Assembly (NCBI GenBank): GCA_003218305.1
Contig: QHMY01000082.1
Coordinates: 1-42,267 of the forward strand
DNA: 42,267 bases
DNA from: Verrucomicrobiota bacterium
GTDB lineage: Bacteria; Verrucomicrobiota; Verrucomicrobiia; Chthoniobacterales; UBA10450
Reading direction: 5' to 3'
In this document: positions 34,951 to 38,229 of the stretch, one piece after another
How the letters are laid out: every line of letters starts with the position of its first letter
Numbering within the stretch: position 1 is the stretch's first letter
Program-made: the position numbers and the translations under genes
Notes under the pieces: model-generated
Told to the model about the DNA's origin: nothing
The model's database searches: none
The model's input: only the letters and a program-made list of their open reading frames with translations

Positions 34951-35096
34951 GCATCAAGGAGGGGCGCTTTCCAAACCGCCCATTCCGCCACGCTGCGAAG
35001 CAGTCACTTTACTCAGCGGGCAAACGCCCCCTTAACGCTCCTTTCGATTTTCCGTGCGAATCGACCCGCGCTTGGTTAATCGTCTCCCTGACTCAA

Positions 35097-36032
35097 ATGC
35101 CCGCAAACTCCGAATTTGCCATCTACGTGCGCGGACTCCGCAAGTCCTACAACGGCTTCGAGGCGGTCAAAGGCATCGACTTCGAAGTCCGGCCGGGCGA
35201 AGTCTTCGGATTGCTCGGCCCAAATGGAGCCGGCAAGACAACCACGGTGGAAATTCTCGAAGGCTTGCGGCCTCGCTCCGCGGGCGAAGTCATGGTGCTT
35301 GGTCTGGATCCCGATCAGCAAAAGAAGCAGCTGAAAGACCGGATTGGCGCCTGTCTCCAGGCGACAAATCTCCCCGACAAGATCACGGTGCGCGAAGCAT
35401 TGGACTTTTTCGGGTCGCTTTACTCGCGCAAAGCCGACGTCAATTCGCTCCTCAAGCGGCTTCAGCTCGAGGAGAAACGAGATGCCGGCTACGCCACCCT
35501 TTCCGGCGGGCAAAAGCAACGGCTCGCTCTCGCCCTCGCTCTGATCAACGATCCTCAGATGCTCTTTCTGGACGAGCCGACAACCGGGCTCGATCCCCAG
35601 GTGCGCCTCGAAATTCGCGACCTGATCGAGGAATTGCGGGCCGACCAGCGCACGATCCTGATGACGACGCACTATATCGAAGAAGCGGAGCGCCTTTGCG
35701 ATCGCGTCGCCATCATCGACGCCGGCCAGATTATCGCCATCGGCACGCCCCGCGACTTGCAGGAGCGAAGCGCCAACCAATCGAGCATCGAAATCAAACT
35801 CGTCCAGCCGCTGCCGGACGCTGCTTTGCCTCAGTGGGCGGAGGCGGGTCGCACCATTGTCAGCGACGATCGGCGTTCGATCATCGTCTACTCCGCGCGT
35901 CCGGCGCGGACACTCGTGGAAATGGTAAAGTGGATCGACGCCAGCGGGTACGAGCTGGATGACATCCGCCTTTCGCGTCCCACCCTGGAAGACGTTTTCA
36001 TTGAGCTGACCGGGAAAAAGTTGCGCGACTGA
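35097..36032 (+). CDS. ABC-2 type exporter ATP-binding protein
   Basis: 311 residues. Walker A 'GPNGAGKTTTVEILEGLRP', signature 'LSGGQKQRLALALALINDP', Walker B 'MLFLDEPTTGLDPQVR', switch 'MTTHYIEEAERLCDRVAII', and the C-terminal extension of the DrrA/NodI group ('YELDDIRLSRPTLEDVFIELTGKKL'). Works with the permease encoded one base downstream (TGA A ATG). The substrate may be a drug, lipid or other small hydrophobic molecule; not determinable here. The 146-bp gap after lnt shows only a short GC hairpin (GGGCAAACGCCC) of doubtful meaning. Confidence 0.93.
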   Translation: MPANSEFAIYVRGLRKSYNGFEAVKGIDFEVRPGEVFGLLGPNGAGKTTTVEILEGLRPRSAGEVMVLGLDPDQQKKQLKDRIGACLQATNLPDKITVREALDFFGSLYSRKADVNSLLKRLQLEEKRDAGYATLSGGQKQRLALALALINDPQMLFLDEPTTGLDPQVRLEIRDLIEELRADQRTILMTTHYIEEAERLCDRVAIIDAGQIIAIGTPRDLQERSANQSSIEIKLVQPLPDAALPQWAEAGRTIVSDDRRSIIVYSARPARTLVEMVKWIDASGYELDDIRLSRPTLEDVFIELTGKKLRD

Positions 36033-36033
36033 A

Positions 36034-38229
36034 ATGAAAGCCTTCCTCGCCTTTCTCAAGATCGACCTGAAGCTGGCGCGCCGAAACCGGGCCGTCCTTT
36101 TCTTCAATTATCTCTTCCCCCTTCTGTTCTTCTTCGCTTTCGGCTTCGCCTTTGGCCGATACGGCAGCGGGATTCTTCTTGTTGTAACCATGGTGACAAC
36201 CATTGGCATTCTCGGGACCGGCTTCTTCGGCGCTGGCATGCGCGCGGTTCAGGAACGGGAAGAAAATATTCTGCGGCGTTACAAGGTTACTCCGATCACA
36301 CCCGTGCCGCTCTTGTGCGCGTCGATCGCCATGGGAGTGATTCTCTACCTTCCCACGGTCGGGCTGATGCTGTTTTTGGCGCACAACATTTTCGGCATGG
36401 CCTATCCGCCAAACTGGGTTTCGCTGCTGATTTTCGTTTGTCTCGGGGTCGCGGCGTTTCGTGCCTTCGGTTTGATCATCGCCGCCGTAGTTAACTCCTC
36501 CCAGGAAGGCAATGTCCTCATTCAGATCATTTACATGCCGATGCTTTTCCTGAGCGGGGCGAGCTTTCCCCTCGCCATCATGCCGGACTGGTTAAAACTC
36601 GTGACGAACTTCGTTCCGGCGAGCTATCTGGTCACGGGGATGGCCGGCATTCTCCAGCATGGGGAATCCATCGCGCAGAATTCTAAGTCCGTGTTCGTGC
36701 TGATCATTACTACGCTGGTCGCGCTTTTTATTGCGACCAAACTGTTTCGCTGGGAGAAGGAAGAAACGATCAAGCCTTCCGCCAAGCTTTGGGTGTTGGT
36801 CGTCCTCCTGCCTTTCTTTCTGCTTGGCGGATATCAGGCCTGGAGTCGACAGGAGTTAACCAAAGTCAAAATTCTCGATCGCGAGCGAGCGCGCACACAT
36901 AACTGGCTCATTCAGAATGCGCGCATTTTTGTCGGCGACGGAAAGGTGATTGAGTCGGGCGCGGTTTTCATCCGGGACGGCAAGATCGAAAACGTCTATG
37001 AGGGAAATTCTCCCGACGCCAAATCACTAAACGCGGAAGCAGTCGACGCGGCGGGCAAGACGGTTTTGCCCGGTTTGATCGACGTGCATGTGCATCTGGG
37101 CGCCACCGGCGGCTTCCCGGAAGATTTCGCGAAGCATGATCCCGCCGCGGCTGCCGAGCGCGCACTCCAATCCTATCTGTATTGCGGCGTCACCGCGGTG
37201 CGCAGCGTGGGAGATCGGCTCGACTACATGTTGAAACTGCGCGGCAAGTTTGGAACCGGCGAAGCGCTCGGCTCGGAATTGTTCTTTTGCGGTCCGCTTT
37301 TCACCGTCGAAGGCGGCCACCCGACCGAGTTCGCTAAGTTTATTCCGGAAGTGATGCGCGCATCATTCGAGGGTGAATTTGTCCGGACTCCGAAAACGGC
37401 GGACGAAGCGCGCCAACAAGTAGATGAATTGTCCGCGAAGCACGTTGATGCCATCAAGGGGGTGCTGGACGAAGGGGTGCCGGGTTATCCCTTCAACCGC
37501 ATGGACGTCGATATCCTGCGCGCCGTCGTTGAGGAAGCGCACTCGCACAAACTGCCCGTCGCTATTCACACGGGAAAAAGCGCGGATGTGGTCGATGCCG
37601 CCGCCCTCGGAGCTGACTCGGTCGAGCACGGCTCGTTCGCCGATGACATTCCCGACGCGACGCTGGCCGAAATGAAGAGCAAGGGAATTGCCTACGATCC
37701 TACTTTGAGCGTGGTGGAAGGCTTCACGAATTTCGCGAAAGGCGACACGACCCTGCTCAAACGCTCCCTCGTTCAGCAGGTGACGCCCAAGGACTTGCTC
37801 TCGGGCACGGAGAAAGCGGCCTCGAGCGACCAATTCAAGGGTCTGCGGGAAGGCTTGACCCATTATCCAATGTCGATGGATACCGGCGGAAAGAACCTGC
37901 TCAAAGCCTGGCGGGCGGGTGTCCTTCTCGTGACCGGTTCGGACGCCGGAAATTTTCTCGTGTTGCACGGATCGACCGTGCAACACGAGATCGAGCTTTG
38001 GGTCGCCGCGGGAGTTCCGATCGAAGTAGCGCTTCAGGCGGCAACCTTGAATGCTGCGAAGCTGCTTCGAGCGGATTCGCGCATCGGGACGGTGGAGGCT
38101 GGCAAAGAAGCCACCCTGCTCATCGTCGATGGCAACCCGATCCAGGATGTCCGCGCTCTTTCCTCCGTTTCCGCCGTCTTTCTGAAAGGCGAACGCGTCC
38201 GCCGCGCGGAACTCTTCGAACAGAAGTAA
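36034..38229 (+). CDS. Fusion: ABC-2 permease + metal-dependent amidohydrolase
   Basis: 731 residues in one uninterrupted frame. Residues 1-245 are an ABC-2 permease with about six membrane segments ('RNRAVLFFNYLFPLLFFFAFGFAFG', 'QEREENILRRYKVTPITPVPLL', 'IIYMPMLFLSGASFPL'); a seventh segment (about 252-270) precedes an amidohydrolase domain (about 288-725) of the imidazolonepropionase/prolidase-like group. Metal ligands are all present: His352 and His354 (DVHVHLG), Lys475 (DAIKG), His512 (AIHTGK), His532 (VEHGSF) and Asp637 (TGSDAG). With seven membrane segments and a cytoplasmic N-terminus, the hydrolase would face outside the cytoplasm. Suggests coupled export and hydrolysis of an amide-containing compound; substrate unknown. 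Next to its ATPase gene. Confidence 0.9.
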   Translation: MKAFLAFLKIDLKLARRNRAVLFFNYLFPLLFFFAFGFAFGRYGSGILLVVTMVTTIGILGTGFFGAGMRAVQEREENILRRYKVTPITPVPLLCASIAMGVILYLPTVGLMLFLAHNIFGMAYPPNWVSLLIFVCLGVAAFRAFGLIIAAVVNSSQEGNVLIQIIYMPMLFLSGASFPLAIMPDWLKLVTNFVPASYLVTGMAGILQHGESIAQNSKSVFVLIITTLVALFIATKLFRWEKEETIKPSAKLWVLVVLLPFFLLGGYQAWSRQELTKVKILDRERARTHNWLIQNARIFVGDGKVIESGAVFIRDGKIENVYEGNSPDAKSLNAEAVDAAGKTVLPGLIDVHVHLGATGGFPEDFAKHDPAAAAERALQSYLYCGVTAVRSVGDRLDYMLKLRGKFGTGEALGSELFFCGPLFTVEGGHPTEFAKFIPEVMRASFEGEFVRTPKTADEARQQVDELSAKHVDAIKGVLDEGVPGYPFNRMDVDILRAVVEEAHSHKLPVAIHTGKSADVVDAAALGADSVEHGSFADDIPDATLAEMKSKGIAYDPTLSVVEGFTNFAKGDTTLLKRSLVQQVTPKDLLSGTEKAASSDQFKGLREGLTHYPMSMDTGGKNLLKAWRAGVLLVTGSDAGNFLVLHGSTVQHEIELWVAAGVPIEVALQAATLNAAKLLRADSRIGTVEAGKEATLLIVDGNPIQDVRALSSVSAVFLKGERVRRAELFEQK

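Follow-up and report, generated by a model that had tools for sequence, protein, structure and literature searches.

A conserved fusion of an ABC-2 permease and a predicted periplasmic amidohydrolase in Verrucomicrobiota

A membrane export pump of soil Verrucomicrobiota carries an amidohydrolase as part of its permease chain. In the 42,267-nucleotide stretch of DNA analyzed here (the window; contig QHMY01000082.1), one open frame of 731 aa encodes an ABC-2 permease fused to an amidohydrolase. This arrangement is conserved, and the literature searched contains no description of a permease-amidohydrolase fusion. It is a variant of the hydrolase-fused ABC exporter idea and not a new category. The PCATs, in which a C39 peptidase is fused to an exporter, likewise place an exporter and a cargo-processing hydrolase on one chain. 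However, the PCAT enzyme is a cysteine peptidase that docks on the cytosolic side and is attached to a chain in which TMD and NBD are fused (PMC6959990), whereas the window fusion joins a metallo-amidohydrolase, predicted to be periplasmic, to a separate ABC-2 permease. In PCATs, cleavage of the cargo precedes export and happens on the cytosolic side. With a metal hydrolase on the far side of the membrane, the product would stay inactive until it is out of the cytoplasm.

Architecture of the fusion protein

The preliminary description of this DNA read the frame as a whole ABC-2 permease, a seventh membrane helix and a complete amidohydrolase with all its ligands, and Pfam matches, AF2 models and the ligand alignment confirm that reading. 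The features, by position in the window, are:

35097..36032, + strand: ABC ATPase, DrrA-like, 311 aa, upstream partner of the fusion
36034..38229, + strand: ABC-2 permease/amidohydrolase fusion, one open frame
36034..36756, + strand: permease core, residues 1-241, six TM helices, ending ...FRWE (PF01061/PF12698)
36775..36843, + strand: seventh membrane helix, residues ~248-270 (hydropathy, K/R counts, AF2 helix 248-287)
36844..36903, + strand: linker, residues ~271-290 (AF2 pLDDT about 51-55)
36904..38226, + strand: amidohydrolase domain, residues 291-731, COG1228/Xaa-Pro dipeptidase-like (profile matches, AF2, fold matches)
37087..37095, + strand: HxH metal ligands H352 and H354, invariant in 22 orthologues and kept in L083
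37318..37320, + strand: H429 of the GGH motif, invariant, likely carbonyl-polarizing by its role in the family (PMC13081902)
37456..37458, + strand: K475, expected carboxylated bridging lysine, invariant
37567..37569, + strand: metal ligand H512, invariant
37627..37629, + strand: metal ligand H532, invariant
37942..37944, + strand: D637, catalytic and metal-ligand residue, invariant

The permease half belongs to the ABC-2 type, matching ABC2_membrane (PF01061) at residues 4-206 with 76.1 bits against a Pfam cut-off of 26.9. ABC2 and amidohydrolase are the only Pfam families that match the fusion, and the C39 cysteine peptidase of the PCATs is not among them. The NCBIfam scan found no equivalog for the fusion, its best results being a partial match to an Xaa-Pro dipeptidase and a match to DrrB. 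Because the DrrB score (TIGR01247) of 51.4 bits falls under the curated cut-off of 223, the permease is DrrB-like and not a DrrB. The adjoining gene encodes a cognate ABC ATPase (PF00005, 111.8 bits), whose best NCBIfam match is DrrA-like (TIGR01188, 267.6 bits, below the curated cut-off). A DrrA-like ATPase beside a DrrB-like six-helix permease is the arrangement of the DrrAB-type drug exporters. The window pair differs from these in scoring under the NCBIfam cut-offs and in what follows the permease core, since ordinary permeases lack both TM7 and the hydrolase.

In the AF2 model of the whole chain, helices occupy residues 19-40, 46-77, 90-120, 128-151, 156-174, 217-237 and 248-287, with a re-entrant pair at 185-209. 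These are read as six ABC-2 helices plus a seventh, with moderate confidence (mean pLDDT 72, pTM 0.54), and hydropathy agrees. Ordinary DrrB-type permeases from plasmids of Rubrobacter, Thermomicrobium and Streptomyces terminate exactly at FRWE or FRWQ. The FRWE motif of the window protein is at residues 238-241, and the extra part begins there, with a short loop, TM7, a low-confidence linker and the hydrolase.

Only 1 nt separates the ATPase stop codon from the fusion ATG, a spacing at which translational coupling is probable. The same gap holds inserts of 90-240 nt at L016:1267-1500 and in L018, L019, L021, L022, L023 and L027; they resemble dispersed repeats and would disrupt such coupling. 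In other relatives, 0-21 nt lie between the ATPase stop and the fusion start.

Side of the membrane

In all full-length orthologues, the loop of 13-16 aa between TM6 and TM7 contains 4-6 K/R, and the loops read as outside contain 0-2. Under the positive-inside rule, this K/R-rich loop would be cytoplasmic and the hydrolase, hence, periplasmic. TM7 is probably a signal anchor that leads out of the cytoplasm. Several stand-alone amidohydrolase relatives start with signal-peptide-like segments. Together, the loop charges and these segments make a periplasmic hydrolase a well-supported prediction. An extracytoplasmic hydrolase behind seven helices had been proposed earlier; the loop, the signal peptides on stand-alone relatives and the end of ordinary permeases at the junction all support it.

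The hydrolase domain

Residues 343-722 match Amidohydro_1 (PF01979) with 104.4 bits against a Pfam cut-off of 25, and the domain carries the HxH, K, H, H and D ligands of the family. The match to the Xaa-Pro dipeptidase model NF051886 is partial, its 168.2 bits lying below the curated cut-off of 500. H352, H354, K475, H512, H532 and D637, together with H429 of the GGH motif, are invariant in 22 aligned orthologues and are kept at about 31% identity in G619, a genome from a different order of the same class. In known family members the ligands hold a pair of metals, with a carboxylated lysine as the bridge (PMC11342369), and a histidine helps to polarize the scissile carbonyl (PMC13081902).

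Modeled alone with its distant relatives (AF2), the hydrolase domain reached a pLDDT of 93.2 and a pTM of 0.93. VIA-align gave Z scores of 42-45 against 2QS8, 3MTW, 3BE7, 2P9B and ochratoxin amidohydrolases, with 44 for the first three, and lower scores against molinate hydrolase (37), imidazolonepropionase (33) and the bottromycin amidohydrolase 6I5S (30.6). The fold is closest to dipeptidases, an Arg/Lys carboxypeptidase and N-acyl-amino-acid (ochratoxin) amidases. The nearest solved relatives hydrolyze dipeptides and N-acyl amino acids (PMC11342369). Deacylation or peptide-bond cleavage had been suggested as the reaction: dipeptide cleavage fits the nearest structures, and deacylation is conceivable.

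The COG1228 amidohydrolases, namely the Xaa-Pro/Xaa-hydrophobic dipeptidase 2QS8, Cc2672 (3MTW), the Arg carboxypeptidase 3BE7 and the ochratoxin amidohydrolase ADH3 (8IHQ), share the fold, the HxH-K-H-H-D ligands and GGH with the window domain. In contrast to it, they are stand-alone secreted or soluble enzymes with no transporter fusion, and they are 25-30% identical to it. After strand 5, the HxH motif reads HAH in 8IHQ and HTG in the window protein, and because the second histidine is replaced, specificity cannot be transferred from 8IHQ.

Conservation of the fusion

Essentially the whole fusion frame is present in 23 genomes: 20 of the same family, two of another family of the order and one (G619) from a further order of the class. 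L009 and L010 are taken as the same genomes as G021 and G023, because their contigs are equally long. The same-family copies are 66-85% identical to the window and include all eight genomes of the genus (8/8). Identity is 45-46% in the two genomes of the other family and about 31% in G619, whose copy is the only one found among 196 genomes of its order. In two genomes beyond these, G027 and G029, the fusion is interrupted by contig ends only. In the orthologue of L027 (G036:C304), the alignment starts at residue 25 and a TAA lies before it, which could reflect a later start, a sequencing error or decay. The genome searches were centered on members of this phylum, and the plasmid collection contained no full-length copy. 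A single origin of the fusion is not rejected by the hydrolase tree (AU p 0.34) or the permease tree (AU p 0.15) and is shown by neither.

A permease-only search of 210 genomes of the order returned no orthologous permease (at least 44% identity) lacking the hydrolase, save for those that run into a contig end. No case was found in which the orthologous permease is split from the hydrolase. NG86 dN/dS against three congeners was 0.04-0.07 for the permease, 0.06-0.12 for TM7 and the linker and about 0.11 for the hydrolase, values that are rough because synonymous changes are near saturation. Since the ratios are low, permease and hydrolase are both under purifying selection.

The genome that contains the window is incomplete, with 285 contigs, which would leave room for an artefact of assembly or annotation. 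An assembly join at the junction, a concern raised in the preliminary description, is nevertheless ruled out by the recurrence of the fusion in 23 genomes and by the low dN/dS through the junction. On the same evidence, the chance of any such artefact is practically nil.

Gene neighborhood

Ten loci were compared, taken from the window's family and from two genomes of another family. The ATPase gene is the one gene that always adjoins the fusion, and in every relative whose contig extends far enough it lies directly upstream. At the two loci of family f10, the shared stretch is the 3-kb cassette alone. The neighbors in the window, named by inspection of translations, are apolipoprotein N-acyltransferase, phosphoglucomutase and ClpB, and they accompany the fusion in near relatives only. 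In three genera the N-acyltransferase gene is found upstream; in g5, g7 and f10 it is not. No small peptide gene conserved beside the ATPase-fusion pair was found across genera. The intergenic region between the N-acyltransferase and ATPase genes contains, at 34951-34982 of the window, a REP-like element of about 31 bp. The genome has more than 40 copies of this element, and some of them form pairs of nearby copies on opposite strands.

Neither the window's genome nor 12 other genomes of its family contained a YcaO gene (0/13), and the fusion does not classify there as a TOMM exporter. Both f10 genomes have two YcaO genes each, on contigs other than that of the fusion, in contexts that by inspection look unrelated to a SagBCD operon. 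In L146, L147 and L148 (G155 C332, G156 C260 and C314), the f10 YcaO genes lie near glycosyltransferase-like and unassigned genes and by inspection are unlike the SagBCD type.

An apparent azole-peptide operon in G619

The G619 copy lies in a different setting, an apparent SagBCD operon recognized from profile matches and inspection (L084:7028-19389, - strand, contig C10). Upstream of the ATPase and fusion genes, on the same strand, are genes for a radical SAM enzyme, SagB, a SagC-like component, a SagD YcaO protein and two CPBP/CAAX-type membrane proteins. The SagB-type dehydrogenase scores 110 bits (TIGR03605, cut-off 78) and the SagD YcaO protein 230 bits (TIGR03604, cut-off 219), so that YcaO is present in this genome; the SagC-like component, at 147 bits, is under its cut-off of 188 (TIGR03603). 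One CPBP-type protein was assigned by Pfam (Rce1-like) and the other by eye. After the fusion comes a gene for an FG-GAP/ASPIC lipoprotein, which overlaps it by 4 nt. Upstream, a 46-aa ORF (L084:19249-19389) whose tail is rich in Cys and which has a Shine-Dalgarno-like site is a candidate precursor, picked by eye among several small ORFs.

These genes have the apparent anatomy of a pathway for a thiazole/oxazole-modified peptide (SagBCD/TOMM). As in streptolysin S-type operons, SagB, SagC and SagD components, CPBP proteases and an ABC exporter stand in one operon, a likeness seen in G619 only. The differences are that the G619 permease is fused to an amidohydrolase, that there is an extra radical SAM enzyme and that the window's family is without such an operon. 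Because YcaO is absent in 13 of 13 genomes, the cargo in the window's family must differ from that of G619.

Apart from the fusion, no exporter was found in the G619 operon, and the presence of the fusion there suggests peptide processing during export. In the biosynthesis of bottromycin, an azole RiPP, a dinuclear zinc amidohydrolase (PurAH/BotAH) removes the follower peptide (PMC10885120). By analogy, the fused enzyme may trim the exported peptide in G619. PurAH/BotAH (6I5S) is comparable as an amidohydrolase with a dinuclear zinc site whose substrate for trimming is an azole RiPP (PMC10885120). It differs in having no transporter fusion, and its fold match to the window hydrolase is more distant (Z 30.6, 19% identity) and falls below the dipeptidases. 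In a poorly studied phylum, the G619 operon offers a starting point, since its peptide pathway can be identified.

Proposed function

We lean, at slightly better than an even chance, toward an ABC-2 exporter with a tethered periplasmic amidohydrolase that cuts an amide bond of the emerging cargo. The products of 35097-36032 and 36034-38229 would assemble into an exporter of two ATPases and two permeases, presumably as a dimer. The seventh helix of each permease would reach the periplasm and hold an amidohydrolase with a binuclear metal site where the pathway ends. The exported compound would be small and either peptide-like or N-acylated, and the hydrolase would cleave an amide bond of this cargo as it emerges, by trimming, deacylation or activation. 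Sequence comparison shows the fusion, its conservation, an intact active site and the ATPase partner. The direction of transport is suggested by analogy with the ABC-2/DrrB family. Export with hydrolysis of a cargo amide on the trans side is the most economical reading, with about an even chance of being right in detail. The tethered hydrolase points to an amide bond in the cargo, and the substrate is therefore testable. That the hydrolase processes the exported compound, as first proposed, gains real if limited support from G619, where the fusion would serve as exporter in an operon with SagB, SagC and SagD and a Cys-rich candidate precursor. It is weakened in the window's family, which lacks YcaO and in which only the ATPase is constant. 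The points against cargo processing are this absence of YcaO, the lack of a conserved small peptide gene and of any constant neighbor but the ATPase, the low identity (about 31%) of the G619 copy and its isolation among 196 genomes of its order, and the existence of related 7-helix permeases that end in another domain.

The pump could instead serve self-protection or resistance, expelling a toxic amide or peptide that the tethered amidase destroys outside the membrane. DrrA/DrrB-like exporters are drug-efflux pumps, close structural relatives of the hydrolase act on ochratoxin, molinate and phenylureas, and the two-gene cassette occupies unrelated places in different genera. However, 8/8 genomes of the genus carry the fusion beside housekeeping genes, which looks like core physiology, and the G619 fusion lies in a biosynthetic operon; we consider self-protection unlikely. 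Since the closest relatives are secreted dipeptidases, the enzyme might also be an ordinary periplasmic dipeptidase for nutrient salvage, anchored on a membrane protein and only incidentally coupled to transport. This is improbable, because no split form of the fusion was found, the ATPase is present every time and an ABC-2 pump would be a strange choice of anchor. The sister seven-helix permeases, which have a domain unlike a hydrolase at the same place, would speak for a non-catalytic receptor or gate. The invariance of the six ligands and H429 in 22 aligned orthologues, and their retention at about 31% identity, argue against this role, which we regard as very improbable.

Sister permeases with another C-terminal domain

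A seventh helix also occurs in two permeases of this order and in seven permeases from other families of the class, but there an unrelated domain of about 150 aa follows it. These permeases, mainly of families f17, f28, f4 and f10 of the same phylum, are:

L097-L103: 7-helix permeases with an unannotated C-terminal domain
L066:904-2316, - strand: the same type
L067:1009-2238, - strand: the same type

The seven sister permeases score at least 240 bits against a 7-helix permease profile that includes the two same-order permeases, versus at most 100 bits for ordinary ABC-2 permeases. In the permease tree, the two same-order sisters join the amidohydrolase fusions with a support of 85/86, which is not decisive. 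The hydrolase is not required for 7-helix pumps, because the sisters have another C-terminal domain. The general plan may be a seventh helix with an extracytoplasmic module, of which the hydrolase is one of two seen, and the sisters suggest a general design. More broadly, and with somewhat less than an even chance, there could be a class of ABC-2 exporters in which TM7 tethers an exchangeable periplasmic module, metallo-amidohydrolase or ~150-aa domain, at the pump exit. The hydrolase form would then be a new trans-side coupling of peptide export and maturation, acting on an azole peptide in one lineage and on another compound in the window's family.

Each of the sister loci examined has its own adjoining ATPase (8/8), and these loci have no other constant neighbor. 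The ~150-aa domain has no match in Pfam or NCBIfam. Its alignment (A4) contains conserved W, Q and R residues as well as AVPD-like and VRERS.LYA.KF stretches, and the domain stands apart from an in-frame permease only in G155, as a 115-aa frame.
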